Below, piece by piece: positions 1,504 to 42,667 of a stretch of DNA of 44,681 bases (within the stretch, counting starts at the first letter, position 1; each line of letters opens with the position of its first letter). Position numbers and translations under genes: made by a program. The stretch comes from Candidatus Kaiserbacteria bacterium RIFCSPHIGHO2_01_FULL_53_31 (GTDB lineage: Bacteria > Patescibacteriota > Minisyncoccia > Phycocordibacterales > Phycocordibacteraceae): NCBI GenBank assembly GCA_001781095.1, contig MFKU01000011.1:25669-70349 (forward strand), read 5' to 3'. The notes beneath the pieces are model-generated. The model was not told the origin of the DNA and did no database searches. It worked only from the letters and a program-made list of their open reading frames with translations.

Positions 1504-1580
1504 TGGTGCGCCCGCCTGGATTCGGACCAGGGACCCATCGCTTAAGAGGCGATTGCTCTAACCAACTGAGCTACGGGCGC
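1504..1580 (-). tRNA. tRNA-Lys (CTT), CCA encoded
   Basis: Cloverleaf on the minus strand: acceptor GCGCCCG/CGGGCGC, D-arm GCTC..GAGC, anticodon stem ATCGC/GCGAT with loop CTCTTAA (anticodon CTT, T33 present), T-arm CCTGG/CCAGG, discriminator A and a genome-encoded CCA. Its 5' acceptor strand overlaps the last 10 nt of the upstream same-strand HTH gene. Confidence 0.93.
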
Positions 1581-2323
1581 ATGGTCCTAATATAATTGAG
1601 ATTAACCGGTTTTTCAATGCTTCGCAGGTGTATCCACCTATTATGTATAGTGTCTGATCTTTTTTTATATCGATGTAATGCGCCTTGAAGCCATCCGTAT
1701 ATTCGATGCTTATTATCCGTACTCTTTGGCACTCGTATCTTGATAGTTCCGTAATACAGATTATTTTTCTTTATTCCTTTTGAGATTGGCTTCACAAAAC
1801 TTTTCCCAAATTGCGAAATCGGGATGCCGGTCAGCGATGACCAAAATCGCTTAAGTTCTCTATCGTCCTGTTGTGGATAGATATTTAGCCACGCTTTAAA
1901 TGTCACTGGAGGAACTTTAAATATATCGGCGAACCAGTCTGTCATAAAAAGAATTAAAAGCGGATCAGAATTCGTTATTTCAATAGCACCGCCCTTGGAA
2001 CCTTCTGCCCAATACAGACCTGCGCCGAGCAGGCGGTAGGCTTCTGACGAAATCGGCGATGATATTTCTGCCTTGGCTGATTCGATAATAGCCTCGACTT
2101 CGCGCCGGCGACGCTCCTTGTTGCTCTGTGATCCAAGAGACATATTTCTAATACGTGCGGTATAAAGTCGCTCGCGATGCTCATTGGATAACGGAATGCT
2201 TTTCAACCAGAAGCTCAGAGTGCTTTTGGACACCCCGAGTTCGCGACCGATAACGGTATAACTGATGCCACGTTTTCGCATTGATTGAGCTCTCCTTTTC
2301 AATTCCTTTCTGTTTATATCCAT
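1571..2323 (-). CDS. HTH protein with LAGLIDADG-like C-terminal region
   Basis: The product is 250 residues. Residues 1-45 form a helix-turn-helix of the resolvase/transposase type (RGISYTVIGRELGVSKSTLS). From about residue 95, LLGAGLYWAEGSKGG resembles a LAGLIDADG dodecapeptide, followed by NSDPLLILFMTDWF and later NNLYYGTIKIRV, which fits the homing-endonuclease-like fold used in several HTH regulators. Catalytic competence cannot be judged. It has TATAAT 8 nt before ATG. The last codons and the TAG stop lie inside the 5' acceptor strand of tRNA-Lys on the same strand, so full-length mRNA and mature tRNA cannot come from one transcript. It could be a regulator or a domesticated mobile endonuclease. 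Confidence 0.7.
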   Translation of the reverse strand: MDINRKELKRRAQSMRKRGISYTVIGRELGVSKSTLSFWLKSIPLSNEHRERLYTARIRNMSLGSQSNKERRRREVEAIIESAKAEISSPISSEAYRLLGAGLYWAEGSKGGAIEITNSDPLLILFMTDWFADIFKVPPVTFKAWLNIYPQQDDRELKRFWSSLTGIPISQFGKSFVKPISKGIKKNNLYYGTIKIRVPKSTDNKHRIYGWLQGALHRYKKRSDTIHNRWIHLRSIEKPVNLNYIRTMRP

Positions 2324-2785: not shown

Positions 2786-3871
2786 ATGATAAGCCCAAAA
2801 ACGAGCCAGGTCACTGGTCTGGCAGTTAGTGTGATCGTCCTCGTCGCAGTCTACTTCATAACGTCGAGCCTCTTCGCTTACGTGCTGGATTTCTGGCACA
2901 TCGGTGAGGTGCTCGGCCCCGTGGCAGGAATTGGTCTCGGCGGTCTCGCGGCCTTCGAGATGTATACACTCCAACAGCGGGAAGTCCCTCTCTATTGGGT
3001 CGGTGTCGTCCTTTTCCTCGGCAAGCCAACTGGCTGGATATGTGAAAACGGTATCCATTGGATTTTTCCGCTCTGTTCTCTCCAAAACGTGCCGGGGGAA
3101 GATAAGAAATACATCGTCATGATGCCCCAAGAGAAGATCAGTGCGCAAGATGGCGCGTTGATTTTCTTCGGGGTTTCAGATGAACCCATGAAGAGAAATC
3201 GCGTGCAATACTCGGTGATTGATCCGTTGTTGTACATAGCGACGGACAATCCCGAAGACTCGCTCAAAGAAGCGTACCTTGAGCAAGCGCGCCTCTTCTT
3301 CAGTCAGGCAGCGAGCCCGATTGGAGTAAAAGACGAAAAGACGGTCTTCAGCGACTACGTCATGCTTCCACCAGAGGATGATCCCGACCCAACTGGATCT
3401 CGCGATGACTTCAGAGAACGTCTGGGGAGCATGACGTACCTTGACACCGGAGTCCCCGACGCTTCTGGGAAAAAGTCCCGCCCGTGTTTATTCAGTAAAG
3501 AGTCGGTTGCCACAATCATGGCGAATGCCGGCGAGTTCAGAGAGAACGCGGCCAAATGGGGGCTCGGCCGGATAATGGCCTTTACGCCGAACGTCCGGGC
3601 TAACCCGGCAACGGAGGAAGCGGCGGCGAAGAAGCAACAAGAGAAGGAAGCCGCCGAGAGCCTCCGGATCGAGGCGGAGAATGTGATTCGGCTTGCGAAG
3701 AAAATGATTGACGACGACGGAGTCAGTCCCGACCTCGCGGGAACCTTGATTGCCGCAATTGGAGGACAGAACGTCAACGTTGATAACAAGACGTTTACTA
3801 TTTCCGGACTCCCTGAGGTGATCCGCCTTCTCGGGGAGAAGGCGATCGAAAGCCTGAAAGACAAGAAATAG
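2786..3871 (+). CDS. SPFH/band-7-like membrane protein
   Basis: The product is 361 residues. Three hydrophobic segments lie near residues 10-32, 42-58 and 68-80. They are followed by a region (about 105-175) with the pattern of a band-7/SPFH domain: a polar strand after KKYIVMMPQEK, then VQYSVIDPLLYI. The C-terminal part (about 270-330) is Ala/Glu/Lys-rich and probably helical, as in stomatin-type proteins. Known family members are membrane scaffolds; the role here is inferred. The start has a strong Shine-Dalgarno (AAGGAAGGAG), unlike many genes in the window. It is followed after 10 nt by a second SD-led gene, so the two form an operon ending at the terminator near 4349. Confidence 0.6.
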   Translation: MISPKTSQVTGLAVSVIVLVAVYFITSSLFAYVLDFWHIGEVLGPVAGIGLGGLAAFEMYTLQQREVPLYWVGVVLFLGKPTGWICENGIHWIFPLCSLQNVPGEDKKYIVMMPQEKISAQDGALIFFGVSDEPMKRNRVQYSVIDPLLYIATDNPEDSLKEAYLEQARLFFSQAASPIGVKDEKTVFSDYVMLPPEDDPDPTGSRDDFRERLGSMTYLDTGVPDASGKKSRPCLFSKESVATIMANAGEFRENAAKWGLGRIMAFTPNVRANPATEEAAAKKQQEKEAAESLRIEAENVIRLAKKMIDDDGVSPDLAGTLIAAIGGQNVNVDNKTFTISGLPEVIRLLGEKAIESLKDKK

Positions 3872-3881
3872 GAGGACAAAC

Positions 3882-4334
3882 ATGGCTAATAATCCATCAG
3901 TGCTGAAGCCGCCACCCGCGCCACCAGAGAGCAAAAAGGATACTCCGGGGGCGCGTGTACCCATCTCGGCGGACGTGAAAAAATGGACATTGCTGATGCT
4001 CGGTGCGTTACTGGTCATCATTACCATAACTCGCATAGCTGCACTCATGCGACACGACCAGGATCAAGAGCGACATGACACCTGTGCGGCCGTAAGCGCG
4101 TACAAGACGCTTCGGTGTTCAGTCGGCACATCGTGTTCATATTGGTTCGGCTCGGAACCGGACGCAGCATTGCCCGGGTACAATGCGTGCAGCTTCCCCA
4201 AAGAGATGGTACGAAGCGAGTACCGTATCAACAAACGCGGACTCGGCGAATACCGTCTCTGTGCGGAGACAGGGAGAGTTGACGTCGCCTACCGGGCGAT
4301 CAAGGGCGACTGCCCACTTACCCTTCCTGAGTGA
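3882..4334 (+). CDS. Single-pass membrane protein, unknown function
   Basis: The product is 150 residues. A Pro-rich N-terminus (PSVLKPPPAPPESK) is followed by one TM helix at about residues 34-53 and a Cys-containing extracytoplasmic tail with about six Cys, which suggests disulfides. I do not recognise the family. A perfect AGGAGG lies 6 nt before ATG. It is the second gene after the band-7-like gene and ends 15 nt before a strong terminator, so the two proteins may act together at the membrane. Confidence 0.65.
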   Translation: MANNPSVLKPPPAPPESKKDTPGARVPISADVKKWTLLMLGALLVIITITRIAALMRHDQDQERHDTCAAVSAYKTLRCSVGTSCSYWFGSEPDAALPGYNACSFPKEMVRSEYRINKRGLGEYRLCAETGRVDVAYRAIKGDCPLTLPE

Positions 4335-4348
4335 GCTGTTGTTTAGGC

Positions 4349-4383
4349 CCGCGGCGCCCCTGGCGCCGCGGTTTTTCTTTTTT
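4349..4383 (+). terminator. Rho-independent terminator
   Basis: A 10-bp GC stem CCGCGGCGCC/GGCGCCGCGG with loop CCT is followed by TTTTTCTTTTTT. It ends the band-7-like operon. The last two bases overlap the stop of the convergent minus-strand array. Confidence 0.9.
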
Positions 4384-4654
4384 ATGAACCAGCCGGCTTT
4401 TGTATAGGCGCCAGATCAAATGTCCCGAGCGCGATATTAATAATGCCGAACGCTCCGAAGATAATCACAAGCCCGATGAGCCCCCAAAATATCGCACTGC
4501 GTCCCTCCTCGCGCTTCTTTACATCTCCTGCGTGCGCAATAAACTCAAACACGCCCCAGATGAATACTATAAAGGCGCCCGCGGAGAGAAGCAAGATAAC
4601 CGGATTGATGATCTGCGTGACAACCTTCGCGATGAATCGTTCGAGTACGATCAT
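4382..4654 (-). CDS. Two-TM 'WG' protein, array copy 1
   Basis: The product is 90 residues. TM1 spans about 17-37 (AFIVFIWGVFEF), a short charged loop follows (GDVKKREEGR), and TM2 spans about 55-77 (FWGLIGLVIIFGAFGIIN) and ends in GTF. It has no signal peptide. It belongs to the same paralogous family as the next four upstream genes, with the pattern AFxxFxWG - K..GR - WGxxG - WGxxNxxxGTF. This architecture resembles TrbC/VirB2-type pilins and is common and uncharacterised in candidate phyla. Its ATG overlaps the TAA of the preceding gene by 1 nt, so translation is probably coupled. It is the last gene of the array. Confidence 0.75.
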   Translation of the reverse strand: MIVLERFIAKVVTQIINPVILLLSAGAFIVFIWGVFEFIAHAGDVKKREEGRSAIFWGLIGLVIIFGAFGIINIALGTFDLAPIQKPAGS

Positions 4655-5028
4655 TAATCGCCGATCTGAACACCAGCATCCGGCGTGCCGCCCGCAGGGC
4701 CAGTGTTATCCCCGAACCGTATGGTGCCGGTCAGGATATTCACGAGACCCCAAATGGAAACCATCACGAAGAAGCCAATAAGACTGTAGAGCATAAGGTT
4801 CTTCCCCTTGTCCTTCACGTCATCGGAGTTAGCGCCCAAGATGAAAGTGTTAAACGCGCCCCACAGGAAGAAGATAAACGCAATTGCGAAGAGGACCGGT
4901 ACAATGACGTTGTTGATCGTATTGATGATAAACGAGCCGACGTCCGAGACGTTGTTTATCGCGGCGAGAGAGACGAGCGGAAGCGTGAAGGCGGTAGCGA
5001 GCGAGACGAGAGCGAGGACTTTTTTCAT
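4654..5028 (-). CDS. Two-TM 'WG' protein with signal peptide, array copy 2
   Basis: I chose the ATG giving MKKVLALVSLATAFTLPLVS, a typical signal peptide with a likely cut after LAA. The longer frame from TTG at 5085 adds 19 polar residues and was rejected. The mature part has TM1 (AFIFFLWGAFNTF), loop GANSDDVKDKGKN and TM2 ending SIWGLVNILTGT, followed by a Gly/Pro tail. The product is 124 residues. Same family as its neighbours; the secreted topology supports pilin-like export. Confidence 0.75.
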   Translation of the reverse strand: MKKVLALVSLATAFTLPLVSLAAINNVSDVGSFIINTINNVIVPVLFAIAFIFFLWGAFNTFILGANSDDVKDKGKNLMLYSLIGFFVMVSIWGLVNILTGTIRFGDNTGPAGGTPDAGVQIGD

Positions 5029-5096
5029 AATGTAGGTGAGCTGGTAACGTTGATAAGTATAGCTTTCCCGCGGCAGAGCGGTCAAACCTTCCCTGC

Positions 5097-5396
5097 TTAC
5101 AGTAGTGGATAACGCGGCGCGACGCCGCCCTGCGGGAGATTAAAAGTGCCGCTCACAATATTGACGAGGCCCCATATCGAGAAAATGACCGCGAAGCCGA
5201 TAATACCCCACAGGACAAACTGTCTTCCGTCAGCGCGGTTCTTCTCGTCGGTTGCGCCGAGAATGAAGTAGTTATAGACACCCCAGAGGAAAGTAATGAA
5301 TGCGATAGCCAGCAGCACCGGCACAAAGAGGCGGTTGATGATATCGATAACGCTCCTCGAATAATACTGGAGATACGCGATGTTGATCCCATTCAT
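5097..5396 (-). CDS. Two-TM 'WG' protein, array copy 3
   Basis: The product is 99 residues from ATG (a GTG two codons upstream is the alternative). TM1 AFITFLWGVYNYF, loop GATDEKNRADGR and TM2 WGIIGFAVIFSIWGLVN ending in SGTF. It has no signal peptide; the N-terminal RSVIDIINRLFVPVL is amphipathic to hydrophobic. Of all the copies it most closely matches the 5866-6135 copy (shared YFxL..AD...R..GRQF). Function unknown. Confidence 0.75.
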   Translation of the reverse strand: MNGINIAYLQYYSRSVIDIINRLFVPVLLAIAFITFLWGVYNYFILGATDEKNRADGRQFVLWGIIGFAVIFSIWGLVNIVSGTFNLPQGGVAPRYPLL

Positions 5397-5405
5397 AGGC
5401 ACTTT

Positions 5406-5846
5406 TTAATACGATGTTGGGGGAGGTGGTGCGTAGTAGCCGGCGAGACCGAAGGTACCCACGACGACGTTCACCAGGCCCCAGATCGATATCATGATGG
5501 CGAACGCGACGACGCCCCAAAAGACGAGTTTGTGCCCTTTCTTAATTTCCTCCGGATCTCCGTTTGAGAAGATATATGCACTTGCAATGCCATAGAGAAA
5601 AACGATAAACGCAACCGCGAACAATACCGGAATCAACACGCCATTAATGATATAAAGAATCGTGCCAGCGACTTCACAGATTGAGCCGGCGCACCCGCCC
5701 CAGCCGCCGCCACCCCCATTGCCCCACGAGAATCCGAGAAAGCCGCTGCCATTGCTCGAAAGGCCCCCTACAACGGTCTGTGCCGATGCAAGAACTGGTG
5801 CAATAAAAATAGCGCTGATAACAATGGTGCGGGCGATTGATTTCAT
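5406..5846 (-). CDS. Two-TM 'WG' protein with signal peptide and Gly-rich linker, copy 4
   Basis: The product is 146 residues. The signal peptide MKSIARTIVISAIFIAPVLA is probably cut at ASA-QT. A Gly-rich stretch (about residues 32-52, NGGGGGWGGCAG) precedes TM1 (AFIVFLYGIASAYIF), loop GDPEEIKKGHK and TM2 (WGVVAF...SIWGLVN, GTF). The tail is YYAPPPP. The linker holds two Cys. It is the longest copy and the most likely to expose a surface segment. The downstream copy starts 9 nt after its stop. Confidence 0.75.
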   Translation of the reverse strand: MKSIARTIVISAIFIAPVLASAQTVVGGLSSNGSGFLGFSWGNGGGGGWGGCAGSICEVAGTILYIINGVLIPVLFAVAFIVFLYGIASAYIFSNGDPEEIKKGHKLVFWGVVAFAIMISIWGLVNVVVGTFGLAGYYAPPPPTSY

Positions 5847-5865
5847 ATGTGCTCAGTATGACACG

Positions 5866-6135
5866 CTATGCGGGAGGCAGGACGCCGAGCGTGGATAACA
5901 AAATATTAACGACTCCCCACACAGAGAAGAGCAACGCCATGCCGAGTATCCCCCAGAGAATAAACTGGCGCCCTTCCGCCCGCTTTGACTCATCAGCGCC
6001 CTGCAGAAAGAAATAATTGATAACTCCCCAGACAAAGACGAGAAACGCAAGTGTCATGATGACCGGTACAACGACGATATTTAGTGCGCCAATAATGCCC
6101 GTTGAACCGTCGCCTACGTATTGTGCGAAGGTCAT
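5866..6135 (-). CDS. Two-TM 'WG' protein, array copy 5
   Basis: I chose ATG at 6135 (TGA-T-ATG junction with the upstream gene) over a longer frame that runs 15 codons into it. The product is 89 residues. It opens MTFAQYVGDGSTG, then TM1 AFLVFVWGVINYFFL, loop GADESKRAEGR and TM2 WGILGMALLFSVWGVVN. No signal peptide. Translation is probably coupled to the pilin-like gene upstream. Confidence 0.75.
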   Translation of the reverse strand: MTFAQYVGDGSTGIIGALNIVVVPVIMTLAFLVFVWGVINYFFLQGADESKRAEGRQFILWGILGMALLFSVWGVVNILLSTLGVLPPA

Positions 6136-6136
6136 A

Positions 6137-6568
6137 TCAATTCCCGACGCGTAGCGCCTGTACGGTCTCGTAGATACCAACCGCGATTACTTGAGCACCA
6201 AGCAGGATAAGCGCACCGACTAGGGTCCAGAGGAGCGCAGTGCGGGCCGCAGTGAGCTTGCCCGGGTCGCCGCGCGCGACGACGAAGAGGAACCCGACAT
6301 ACACGAGCATGAAGATAACGACCACCGGGCCGACAATATCGGTAATTATTTCCAAAATATCGAGAACGAACGAATTGATTGTGGTGCCCGTGCCGAGCGG
6401 ATTAATCAGAGTGACCTCAGAGCCAGCGTTTGGCGACGGAGCGGTCGGTCCCATGTTGTTGGTACTCTGCGCAGGAACGGTCGGACCCATTAGATTAGTG
6501 GCCGCAAATGTCACTGGCGCGAATGCGAATAGAAGTAAGAAAGCGACGACTGAAAGGCGCGTGATCAT
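6137..6568 (-). CDS. TrbC/VirB2-family pilin-like protein
   Basis: The product is 143 residues. The signal peptide MITRLSVVAFLLLFAFAPVTFA is followed by a Pro/Asn/Thr linker with a repeated MGPT motif. Two TM segments (about 72-98 and 109-132) are separated by ARGDPGKLTAARTA, the small basic loop of TrbC/VirB2 conjugative pilins. Known members are exported, trimmed and polymerised into type IV secretion pili. No VirB4 or VirD4 ATPase lies in the window, so the assembly machinery must be elsewhere or absent. It overlaps the solute-binding protein stop by 4 nt (ATGA). Confidence 0.72.
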   Translation of the reverse strand: MITRLSVVAFLLLFAFAPVTFAATNLMGPTVPAQSTNNMGPTAPSPNAGSEVTLINPLGTGTTINSFVLDILEIITDIVGPVVVIFMLVYVGFLFVVARGDPGKLTAARTALLWTLVGALILLGAQVIAVGIYETVQALRVGN

Positions 6569-7872
6569 GGTTGTAATAGCGAAGTAAGCGAGCGTGCAGC
6601 ATTCGAAACCGCGGTATCAGACATCGAGCGGCCGCTCACCACGTCTCCAATCATACTTGAGAAAACCTTATCGACGTCGAGCGGCGCTGGGGACAGCCAG
6701 CCCTTTGCGTAGAGCGCGGACGTGTAGGCGACGACGGCAGTCGGATCTGCCGGTGCGGTTGAAAGCGCACCCCGCGTAGCCGGAGCGAGTCCGGTCATCT
6801 TAGCTGCGATGTCTTGCTCCGCAGAGTTTGTGAAGAGCGCGGCAGCTTGATAGGCGCCGGTCGGGTTCTTCACACCGCGTGGGATCATAAATGCATACAC
6901 GAGACCGTAGGTGCCTTTCCCTAACGCCGTAACCGGCTGCGGCAATGGGGCAACACTAAAGGCGAGGTTTGGATTCGTCGCCCGTAGAAAAAGTACTTCA
7001 GAGGCATAGCCGAGATAGAGCGCAAGATCACCCGCCCCGAATGCTTGTTGCGAATCCGGCTCGGAGCTATTCCACGTGTACGAAACCTTTGACGGATCAG
7101 CGAACTGGGTATAGAAGCCGACGACCGCCTCGCCAGTGGGCACACCGCCTCCCGTTTGCTCGCCAAGATCAGCCGAGAGGACGCCTCCCGCCGAATATCT
7201 GACCATAGGCACATTGGTCTGGAGAAATAGCGCGGATAGTATGCCACGCGCATTATGCACATTGTCATACGTGCCAAGCGCGATCAAACCGCGGGTAACC
7301 TGCTTGCTCGGAGTGAGTACGGCAACATTTGGCATGAGACCGATGAGCGCCTCCCACGTTGCTGGCGGTTTCGCGATGCCGCTCGAAGAAAGGATGTTGT
7401 TATTCCAAAAGAGGACGAGCGGATCGACCAGAAATGGTATCCCGAAGTACCCCGCTCCGCCGGGAGCGGTGAACAGATTACCTTCGTCAATGAAAGTGCT
7501 CGTGAATGTACTCGCGGATATTGTGTCTGTTCCGATAGGTGCGATGAATTTCGCGAGTGCGAAAAGCTCTTCCTGTGACGCGAGCACGAGATCGGGGGCC
7601 GTTTCCGTCGCAATCGCCGCAGCTAGATCGGCTGGCAGGGTCGAAGGATCTTTCTCGACATATGAGACATTCTTCATGCCTTCATCAACCTGCGTAACGG
7701 AAGTCAAAGTGGCATTCATCGCCTCCTTCGGGAGCGTACCCCACACCTTGACTGTGCCGATGGTATTGTTACCGCTTCCATTGCTGCTGTACGTTGCGAA
7801 GACGAAGAGTCCCACGAGCGCCCCGAAGCCGAAGACGCCGATCAGAATGCCCTGAAATAATGAGATTTTCAT
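6565..7872 (-). CDS. Membrane-anchored extracellular solute-binding protein (family 1-like)
   Basis: I chose the ATG giving MKISLFQGILIGVFGFGALV; a longer frame adds 57 low-complexity residues and overlaps the next gene. The product is 435 residues. Residues 7-27 are a TM anchor with no lipobox Cys. The body follows the MalE-like type: KVWGTLP near residue 42, PDLVLAS, FGIPFLVDPLVLFWNN, and FGAGDLALYLGYASE. Such proteins normally deliver sugars or peptides to an ABC permease, but no permease or ATPase gene lies nearby. The 4-nt overlap with the pilin-like gene ties it to the array, where it may act as a receptor or adhesin. Confidence 0.75.
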   Translation of the reverse strand: MKISLFQGILIGVFGFGALVGLFVFATYSSNGSGNNTIGTVKVWGTLPKEAMNATLTSVTQVDEGMKNVSYVEKDPSTLPADLAAAIATETAPDLVLASQEELFALAKFIAPIGTDTISASTFTSTFIDEGNLFTAPGGAGYFGIPFLVDPLVLFWNNNILSSSGIAKPPATWEALIGLMPNVAVLTPSKQVTRGLIALGTYDNVHNARGILSALFLQTNVPMVRYSAGGVLSADLGEQTGGGVPTGEAVVGFYTQFADPSKVSYTWNSSEPDSQQAFGAGDLALYLGYASEVLFLRATNPNLAFSVAPLPQPVTALGKGTYGLVYAFMIPRGVKNPTGAYQAAALFTNSAEQDIAAKMTGLAPATRGALSTAPADPTAVVAYTSALYAKGWLSPAPLDVDKVFSSMIGDVVSGRSMSDTAVSNAARSLTSLLQP

Positions 7873-7879
7873 ATTGGAA

Positions 7880-8422
7880 TTATGCTGCAGGTTTGGTGAA
7901 TACGATAGCGTAATGGTGCGGGCCGGCCTTAAATGACTTCTCCTTCGCAAAGGCGTTGCTGACGAAGAATTCCTCTGCGGTGTGTTCGGAAACGACGCAC
8001 TCTGGCGCGGGACCCATGCCGCTGTAGCTGCCCGACCAATCAATCAACAATAATTTACCGGTCGGCTTTAACACACGCTTGATTTCAGCTACTAATCCTT
8101 CCCTATTCTCAATTTGAAACAATGTGTTCGCGAGGATAACGGCGTCGAGCGACGCATCACGCAGGTGGGTGCCGCCCGACTTCTCGATGTCGCCCCAGAC
8201 AGTCTCGATGACGCTCTTGTGGTGATCGTGCGTATTCAGCTTCAGATGCTTGAGAACGTCTTCCTGTACGTCGATCGCATAGACCTTGCCGCTGTGGCCA
8301 ACAATTGCCGCCGCCGCTCGCGAATAGTGACCGCTGCCAGCACCGAAGTCGCCGACCTTCATCCCTTCGCGTAGTCCAAGCTGTAAAATGTTGTCGCGCG
8401 GCTCGCTGAACGAGGCAGTCAT
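7880..8422 (-). CDS. Class I SAM-dependent methyltransferase
   Basis: The product is 180 residues, a compact Rossmann-fold methyltransferase of the Methyltransf_11/UbiE-like type. Motif I is VGDFGAGSGHYS (about 22-33), the acidic residue closing strand 2 is in YAIDVQED, and the post-motif region LDAVILANTLFQ precedes RVLKPTGKLLLIDW. The substrate cannot be read from the sequence. It ends 7 nt before the solute-binding protein, so it may head the pilin-like operon. A TAGTTT box 6 nt before ATG could start a leaderless message. Confidence 0.8.
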   Translation of the reverse strand: MTASFSEPRDNILQLGLREGMKVGDFGAGSGHYSRAAAAIVGHSGKVYAIDVQEDVLKHLKLNTHDHHKSVIETVWGDIEKSGGTHLRDASLDAVILANTLFQIENREGLVAEIKRVLKPTGKLLLIDWSGSYSGMGPAPECVVSEHTAEEFFVSNAFAKEKSFKAGPHHYAIVFTKPAA

Positions 8423-40936: not shown

Positions 40937-42667
40937 TTATCCACCCGCTTCATCATCGATCTGTTCCAGACGCGTGAGAATGTCATCTTCTAGCTTCCTC
41001 AAGTGAAGTTTCAATTTCTCCAGAATCACGTCCTCCTCTTGTGTTAACTGACGCCGCTGTTTCGCCTTATGCAACAACACGGCAAGTGAATGGAGGTCGT
41101 CCATGATGAGTTCAAAATCATGTTGAGCTCCGCGTCCCGAACGTACCGTGAGCTGTTTGAGACGGCGACGCAAATGCGAGAGTCGGTACCACAGGATGTA
41201 GCTCGCACCTACAACAAGCACGACTGCAGCAACGACGGCGAATGCAAATAAGAGATATCCAAACACCGTACTTCCCCACTGCGCAAGTGGCGTACCCGCC
41301 ACCACGAAAATGTGCGATTCGGTCGGCAGACTCGTAGCTCCTGCGGCATTCCTAGTCACTGCCGTAAAGGAATATGCACCCGCATCAAGGTGTTTCGTCC
41401 ATGCGAGTGAGAAGCTCCCTGAACCATCAGCAACGGTCGATTCAGTCTCTATGTCGCCACTCGAGTCCTTTATTGTTACTAGCACACTTGCGCCCGGATA
41501 GGTGGTGCCGGAGAGTGAGAACGGATCACCGACTCTGAGTTGTTGGCTGTATGTCGTAATGGTTGGCGATTCAATCGCTACGATGTCGAGTGTGATTGAA
41601 TCCGTGGCGGTATTCCCCGCACGATCATACGCTTTTACCACAACCGTCTGTTGACCAGATTCCTCGACCGAGAGCGCGTATGGGCCTTTTGCGATTTCGC
41701 TCGGCAGCACTATCACGGGATCGGCATCGCCGATTGTCACTGTGTAATGATCGACACCTGAGGTTGCGTCGCTCGTCCTGAAGGAAATAGTTGCCTGTGG
41801 ACTGTTCGTGTCACTTTGATGCACAACGGCGATAGAAAACGGTTTTGGTGCTGTCGTGTCTATCTGAAACCGTATATGGGAAACGGCTCCCCAACCGCTT
41901 GCATTTTCAAACTGCGCGTGGAAATAATAGGTACCGTCACTGACGTCCGTTAACTGTTTGCGAGCAACGGCGGGGCTATAGAGAATACTCGGTGACGAAA
42001 CGGGACTTCTATCATAGAGGAGTCGCGCAGCGATGATATCCGTCGGTACCTTCCAAGAGAAGAGTGGACTTCCGTTCTTATACCGTGTGCTTGGATTCGG
42101 GTGTGTTGACGAGGTAATGACTGGTGCGAGTGGCGCACCGCGTACGGCGCCTGGACTCGTGGCCTCTGGTGCAGAGTCGCCGAGCGAGAGTGTTTTCGCA
42201 TACGTTTTCGAGAGAATGTTACTGCCGAGCCCGTCGTTCGCGAGTATGGACGCACTCGAGAATGAAATAGTTGCCGTGCCAGATGCTTTTACTTTGAATA
42301 CGAACGTTACGACGGTCCCGCTCTGGCCGCTCCATCCCGGATTAGGCACGACGCCTTGGAGCGATGCGGTGCCGTTGCTATTTGAGAATGAAGGATCTTC
42401 AGCCCAAAACGACATGACACTGCCAACCTTCGAAATCGATTGAAGGGTCAGCGCTTGTGGAGGGAACCGTACTTCTGCAGATACTGCATTCAGTACCTCG
42501 CTCCCTTCGGTAGAAACAAGAAGAGGTATCTGTATCGTTTGACCGATGGTGGCACTATCACCCGATGAGAGTGAGAGGGTTGCCGCTACTGCATGCGGCG
42601 TGACACCAGCAACACTACCGATGAACAACGCGAGTGTAGAAAAAAGGAATAATTTATGGCGAAGCAT
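40937..42667 (-). CDS. Cohesin-domain surface protein with Ig-like repeats and C-terminal TM
   Basis: The product is 576 residues. The signal peptide is MLRHKLFLFSTLALFIGSVA, cut near AVAA-TLSL. A cohesin-like beta-sandwich spans about 30-165 (GQTIQIPLLVSTEGSEVLNA start; VTFVFKVKASGTATISF end). Two or three Ig-like domains follow (TTAPKPFSI, DSITLDIVAIESPTITTY, GTTYPGASVLVTIKD). A TM spans about 475-500, then an Arg-rich cytoplasmic coiled coil. It is anchored the reverse way to a sortase substrate. Ligands may be dockerin-like proteins or glycans, inferred only. Overlaps the upstream gene by 14 nt. Confidence 0.78.
   Translation of the reverse strand: MLRHKLFLFSTLALFIGSVAGVTPHAVAATLSLSSGDSATIGQTIQIPLLVSTEGSEVLNAVSAEVRFPPQALTLQSISKVGSVMSFWAEDPSFSNSNGTASLQGVVPNPGWSGQSGTVVTFVFKVKASGTATISFSSASILANDGLGSNILSKTYAKTLSLGDSAPEATSPGAVRGAPLAPVITSSTHPNPSTRYKNGSPLFSWKVPTDIIAARLLYDRSPVSSPSILYSPAVARKQLTDVSDGTYYFHAQFENASGWGAVSHIRFQIDTTAPKPFSIAVVHQSDTNSPQATISFRTSDATSGVDHYTVTIGDADPVIVLPSEIAKGPYALSVEESGQQTVVVKAYDRAGNTATDSITLDIVAIESPTITTYSQQLRVGDPFSLSGTTYPGASVLVTIKDSSGDIETESTVADGSGSFSLAWTKHLDAGAYSFTAVTRNAAGATSLPTESHIFVVAGTPLAQWGSTVFGYLLFAFAVVAAVVLVVGASYILWYRLSHLRRRLKQLTVRSGRGAQHDFELIMDDLHSLAVLLHKAKQRRQLTQEEDVILEKLKLHLRKLEDDILTRLEQIDDEAGG

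Follow-up and report, generated by a model that had tools for sequence, protein, structure and literature searches.

Why should a sugar-type solute-binding protein (SBP) be encoded directly in front of a row of small membrane proteins, in a genome where no cognate permease is found? The locus that raises this question lies in a 44,681-nucleotide stretch of contig MFKU01000011.1 from Candidatus Kaiserbacteria bacterium RIFCSPHIGHO2_01_FULL_53_31 (hereafter the window). On the minus strand, from 8422 to 4382, a UbiE-like methyltransferase, the SBP and six small two-helix proteins are encoded almost without gaps. The source genome (667 kb in 16 contigs, 94.9% complete) has Candidatus Kaiserbacteria and other Parcubacteria as its closest named relatives, and the bacteria carrying the locus are tiny and probably host-dependent. 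The safest statement of our result is that this is the pilin operon of the type IV secretion system (T4SS) of Patescibacteria and that it includes the orphan SBP as a conserved component. The fuller explanation, in which a chromosomal T4SS pilin operon is headed by an oligosaccharide-type SBP co-opted as a recognition or capture subunit, is one on which our belief and our doubt are evenly balanced.

The six small proteins, designated q1 to q6 from the SBP onward, belong to one family. All of them match the Pfam family T4SS_pilin (PF18895), and they are encoded on the minus strand at 6137–6568 (q1, E 2e-6), 5866–6135 (q2, E 3e-8), 5406–5846 (q3, E 1e-5), 5097–5402 (q4, E 6e-9), 4654–5028 (q5, E 5e-9) and 4382–4654 (q6, E 2e-8), the last being the final gene of the operon. 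The q1 gene overlaps the stop of the SBP gene by 4 bp. The open frames of q2 and q5 start at 6180 and 5085, with ATG codons at 6135 and 5028, respectively. When each protein was scanned singly against PF18895, five exceeded the cut-off and q3 fell 0.8 bits below it (E 1e-5); in the genome search, the six array pilins and one pilin-domain protein encoded on another contig near VirB4 were all above the cut-off. The initial annotation had described five adjacent "WG" genes (q2 to q6) joined to a VirB2-like pilin gene and the SBP gene. These genes are all present as described, and the five WG products do share a profile, with mutual identities of 31–50% in the alignment. The VirB2-like gene is also present, but it is not of a separate kind: q1 is the most divergent member of the same family, and its identities of 22–38% to the others are far above chance. 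Among 22 aligned members of the q1 slot, 22 match PF18895 and 20 match the TrbC/VirB2 family PF04956 (E up to 0.05, best 4e-8), the window copy lying below the PF04956 cut-off. No pilin was found when the q1 profile was compared with the PDB. A weak DctQ match to q1 (4 of the 22 members, E 0.003) raised the reading of a tripartite ATP-independent periplasmic (TRAP) transporter, which we rejected because PF18895 and TrbC are the better fit and the SBP does not belong to the DctP type.

As had been proposed, two of the WG proteins have a signal peptide and three do not. Signal-peptide-like starts are read from the sequence in q1, q3 and q5 and are absent from q2, q4 and q6; q3 additionally contains a Gly-rich insert. 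The N-termini were read directly, as automatic heuristic counts were unreliable. In other species, the presence or absence of the signal peptide tracks the slot, with slot 4 being variable, since some q4 orthologues have one. In the AlphaFold2 (AF2) model of q5, a signal helix is followed by helices spanning residues 27–67 and 69–99 (mean pLDDT 73, about 83–94 in the helices). This agrees with the hairpin of two hydrophobic helices joined by a short charged loop that characterises PF18895. A fold search with this model gave no significant match, and the hairpin alone is therefore not diagnostic.

The six slots are old. In a tree of the pilins of the window and 22 relatives, sequences cluster by array position and not by genome, with q2, q3, q4 and q6 each falling in a slot-specific clade; where more distant relatives have arrays of five genes, these are offset by one slot. 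Orthologues across species have median identities of 52–72%, versus 22–50% between the paralogues of the window, and q5 is the best conserved slot (median 72%). An antigenically variable cassette of the Bartonella type, produced by recent lineage-specific duplication, was rejected because the tree is slot-wise and orthologues are closer than paralogues. Judged from these sequences, the six pilins are old, distinct and position-specific subunits. Larger proteins of about 300–400 aa with a PF18895 domain occur 10–15 kb from the array in several genomes of the GTDB family (L042:15973-17157 and L042:17764-18663, with equivalents in L043-L045, L047 and L057), and these are possibly VirB6-like or fused pilins. 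Genome G088, a bin with 4% contamination, contains 20 pilins and three SBP matches and is probably mixed.

The SBP (6565–7872, minus strand) matches both SBP_bac_8 (E 1e-18) and SBP_bac_1 above the cut-offs. It consists of an N-terminal transmembrane (TM) helix at residues 5–27, a linker and a full two-lobe domain; the window copy has no lipobox, and in some other families a lipobox takes the place of the TM helix. The AF2 model contains a complete two-lobe SBP domain (pLDDT 91, pTM 0.87), for which the best PDB match with VIA-align is a beta-1,2-glucooligosaccharide-binding protein (Z 36.0, 3.2 Å over 367 residues). The fold is preserved across 360–375 residues in matches to oligosaccharide-binding relatives, and Trp, Tyr, Asp and Asn positions vary little or not at all among the aligned relatives. 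The gene is carried by 94 of the 99 genomes of the GTDB family, by 185 of 197 in the order (129 of its 137 genera) and by 215 of 287 across the phylum, nearly always as a single copy.

The permease that such a protein would normally serve is missing. No BPD_transp_1 (MalF/G-type) permease was detected in the 667-kb genome, in agreement with the earlier description of a membrane-anchored MalE-like protein lacking one. Of the 99 family genomes, 42 encode BPD_transp_1, all but two of them in a single copy, and 57 do not; within the phylum it is present in 41 of 287 (14%) and absent from 246, while all 14 control genomes were positive. Comparing the two lists by hand, we found no permease in 176 of the 215 SBP-bearing genomes, and among the genomes where both positions were listed none was near the SBP. 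Most of these genomes are metagenome bins, so that an absence in a single bin is weak evidence, but the pattern over the phylum is not. An ordinary sugar importer was therefore rejected, and with no ATP-binding cassette (ABC) permease to serve, the SBP is most likely not part of one.

The gene that the SBP does accompany is the pilin gene. Of 80 named relatives, the 73 with enough sequence all have a pilin gene that begins no more than 600 bp downstream of the SBP, and all 76 in which the upstream side was testable have the methyltransferase there. An order-wide search gave pilins after the SBP at 28 of 30 loci; the sequences of the two others (L145 and L148) end about 125–560 bp beyond the SBP. 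A phylum-wide sample took one region from each of 60 GTDB families; in 46 of these regions the SBP gene is followed directly by pilin genes of the same orientation, which usually overlap it or begin within tens of base pairs. One of the 46 has a pilin upstream as well, and upstream alone never occurred. Our pilin profile was built from these loci, and its E-values depend on that. The number of pilin neighbours expected by chance is well under one (about 7 pilins per 900 genes). A naive binomial figure ignores shared ancestry; therefore, the weight of the linkage rests on its persistence. The pair indeed persists while its surroundings switch: across the 46 linked samples, the upstream neighbour is the methyltransferase in 8 and galU in 28, and the anchor is either a TM helix or a lipobox. 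In most of the families sampled outside the class of the window, the gene directly upstream encodes a GalU-type nucleotidyltransferase (L204:4014-4919 and 27 other samples). Because the pairing is kept in most sampled families, the SBP is a candidate surface receptor of the secretion machine. The two findings named in advance as fatal to the initial annotation, a lack of shared profile among the WG proteins and a lack of conserved synteny, were not made.

The machine itself is encoded elsewhere in the genome. VirB4 (605 aa), PrgI (VirB3; E 3e-10) and a TrsD-like protein are encoded near dnaA and dnaN, and together they make up an MPF-FATA-like T4SS core. The TrsD-like protein (210 aa) was identified by homology to the protein preceding VirB4 in genome G552, its name being taken from PMC12102498. 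A VirD4/TrwB-like coupling protein is encoded on another contig, so both components that the annotation had suggested looking for were found. VirB4 is present in 273 of the 287 phylum genomes. In G552, the methyltransferase, the SBP, two pilins, PrgI, TrsD and VirB4 follow one another contiguously in this order. In three families (f120, f130 and f113), PrgI-TrsD-VirB4 lies roughly 10–12 kb downstream on the same strand. The single-contig genomes G348 and G314 (97–99% complete) have only two PF18895 genes genome-wide, both behind the SBP, and PrgI-TrsD-VirB4 about 10 kb downstream of the SBP-pilin genes on the same strand. In these two genomes, the SBP-linked pilins are therefore the T4SS pilins. 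In f120 and f130, two conserved opposite-strand genes with weak PEGA-like and EccD-like TM matches (L276:8834-12266 and L278:8419-11955) sit between the pilins and a VirB6-sized protein upstream of PrgI.

From these results, we regard it as very likely that the operon supplies T4SS pilins, and as fairly likely that the SBP works with the T4SS. That it serves as a recognition or capture subunit is a role we infer, and to which we give slightly less credit than doubt. The multi-subunit surface or secretion structure suggested in the initial annotation is thus borne out by the T4SS core genes elsewhere in the genome, the phylum-wide SBP-pilin order and the lack of a permease. Several observations weigh on the other side. 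The operon of the window is not beside VirB4; it lies on a separate contig, next to gyrA. In 14 of the 60 family samples, the SBP has no detected adjacent pilin. The SBP tree includes 14 SBPs without a pilin partner, of which 13 come from unlinked families and one is a second copy; 12 of the 14 fall into a single clade with full support. About 25% of the sampled phylum genomes have no detectable SBP, whereas 98% keep pilins and 95% keep VirB4; the T4SS can therefore work without the SBP. Finally, the pace of SBP evolution is moderate and steady (65% identity versus 86% for GyrA) and gives no sign of the hypervariability that some host-range receptors would be expected to show. The members of the pilin-less clade are L235-L237, L239, L242, L247, L249 and L251-L255, and several of them adjoin an unassigned protein with an "FDYPL" motif near its start.

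The same evidence bears on four other explanations. The SBP might collect host oligosaccharides and hand them to the T4SS pilus or a non-ABC carrier, the T4SS acting as an uptake conduit. Its fold is that of sugar-binding proteins, Patescibacteria lack most biosynthesis, reviews have speculated on uptake through the T4SS (PMC11665869, PMC12857230), and earlier work had counted the protein, as K02027, among the components of sugar transport that are retained (PMC7137472). Nevertheless, we consider nutrient capture unlikely, as most genomes lack a permease partner and the operon contains no sugar catabolic genes. Adjacency could also persist without joint function, if an ordinary SBP with an unrecognised transporter were held beside the pilins by co-expression or slow rearrangement. 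The upstream genes are housekeeping ones (gyrA, galU), and the 14 of 60 samples without a detected pilin neighbour would fit this account. It is nevertheless the least probable of the four, and we give it very little weight: 46 of the 60 families keep the SBP-pilin pair although the upstream context is not constant across lineages, and permeases occur in only 14% of genomes, with none near the SBP where both positions were listed. We know of no precedent for an SBP loading a T4SS pilus, which counts further against nutrient capture.

Signalling offers another role, in which the SBP would detect a host compound and control the T4SS, as ChvE does with VirA or as PrgZ, in response to pheromone, does with a chromosomal permease. 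The PrgZ gene accompanies those of a conjugative T4SS, and the binding protein has no permease of its own (PMC6540685). However, PrgZ uses chromosomal permeases, the window genome has no BPD_transp_1, and the operon encodes no kinase or regulator, so that a sensor seems improbable. We judge equally improbable that the fold has been exapted as a rigid tip, cap or pilin chaperone with ligand binding lost. The SBP gene directly precedes and overlaps the first pilin gene and is fixed with the array across the order, as a structural part would be; yet the two-lobe fold is intact over 360–375 residues with oligosaccharide-binding relatives, and its Trp, Tyr, Asp and Asn positions are invariant or nearly so.

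The surroundings of the operon are those of a chromosomal locus. The methyltransferase (7880–8422, minus strand) is a UbiE-like class I S-adenosylmethionine-dependent enzyme of 180 aa (Pfam Methyltransf_11, E 9e-17) and is the first gene, so the operon as first delimited should be extended to include it. Just past q6, between the operon and a convergent gene, a pattern scan found a strong GC-rich 10-bp hairpin followed by T (4349–4371), which is terminator-like as a consensus match only. The two convergent genes downstream (2786–4334, plus strand) encode a 361-aa protein that matches Band_7/SPFH very weakly and a 150-aa protein with a single TM-like segment, neither of them assigned to a family. 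A mobile element or phage was rejected as the context, because a PHROGs search gave no match, IMG/VR contained no relatives of the SBP, and the genes around the operon are housekeeping ones (gyrA, ftsA/Z, lepA and rnpB). Elsewhere in the window, a protein with cohesin-like and bacterial Ig domains (40937–42667, minus strand) is a possible surface adhesin. A 250-aa protein with an N-terminal helix-turn-helix (1571–2323, minus strand) abuts a tRNA-Lys gene (1504–1580) and resembles an orphan DNA-binding protein or a homing-type gene.

The initial annotation knew of no described system with this arrangement. In part this does not stand, as tandem pilin arrays have been published: Quinonero-Coronel et al. 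2025 (PMC12102498) described 441 arrays, each of 2–11 VirB2-like pilins, across 383 assemblies of Patescibacteria. It holds for the linked SBP, for which we found no link to the T4SS of Patescibacteria in the open-access literature. The published arrays (PMC12102498, PMC10633639) resemble ours in their PF18895 pilins, in tandem arrays of similar size that are divergent within each array, and in an MPF-FATA-type T4SS with VirB4, PrgI and TrsD, often near dnaA; they differ in that no SBP was reported. They have been discussed as possible antigenic variation or versatility against hosts, the latter proposed in PMC12102498, where no PrgB-type adhesin was found in Patescibacteria, whereas the slots of the window are orthologous across species. 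Five of the six pilins also score 28–38 bits, and q1 17, against the Mbov_0395 family, pilin-like conjugal transfer proteins of a Mycoplasma integrative and conjugative element (NF045849), all under its cut-off of 40. That system is element-borne mycoplasma conjugation, whereas ours is chromosomal and includes an SBP. PrgZ of pCF10 and related pheromone plasmids is likewise a binding protein outside the cell whose gene accompanies a T4SS and which has no permease of its own, but it binds peptide and needs chromosomal permeases, whereas our SBP is MalE-type in a permease-free genome. Compared with the MalE/UgpB-type SBPs of ABC oligosaccharide transporters (for example 5ysb, 7bvt and 4r9f), the SBP shares the full fold (Z 33–36) at 16–18% identity, and differs in having no MalFGK-type partner, a TM or lipobox anchor and a pilin operon.

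Our preferred explanation can be put as a model. The locus would be the pilin operon of the chromosomal T4SS that presumably acts on the host cells of Patescibacteria. Each pilin, with a signal peptide or a short N-terminus, would form a two-helix membrane hairpin. The six would not be interchangeable, and together they may build a hetero-polymeric pilus or conduit upon the machine whose VirB4, PrgI and TrsD genes lie near dnaA. A TM helix, or in other lineages a lipobox, would hold the SBP on the outer side of the membrane, presumably in physical association with the pilus. There it may bind a glycan or a small molecule that comes from the host, whereupon its lobes would close and license adhesion, pilus extension or transfer. 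By analogy, it may fill the place of the pilus-tip protein VirB5 or the adhesin PrgB in other T4SSs, the proposed likeness being only one of position, that of surface recognition beside the pilus. To our knowledge, the SBP has no fold or sequence relation to VirB5 or PrgB. In its strongest form, the model has a phylum-wide T4SS with an ABC-type SBP as dedicated ligand-recognition or capture subunit, in which bound host glycan gates a hetero-polymeric pilus for attachment or for drawing host material. As a joint claim this is tentative, and we think it rather doubtful that every part is right. We found no description of an SBP wired in as a T4SS subunit for any T4SS.

The role of the Patescibacterial T4SS has been called completely unknown (PMC11665869). 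In Paceibacteria that parasitise archaea, namely methanogens, T4SS pilin genes rank with the most highly expressed of the genes that encode a signal peptide (PMC10936435), and a T4SS with a pilin array is essential in Southlakia epibionticum (PMC10633639, PMC12857230), the one species tested. The entry K02027, "multiple sugar transport substrate-binding protein", which PMC7137472 counts among the transporter components retained in the phylum, probably does not, for the most part, belong to a transporter, and we suggest that this reading be corrected. The SBP is a concrete, expressible protein, and its ligand could reveal what the T4SS of these bacteria recognises or takes.

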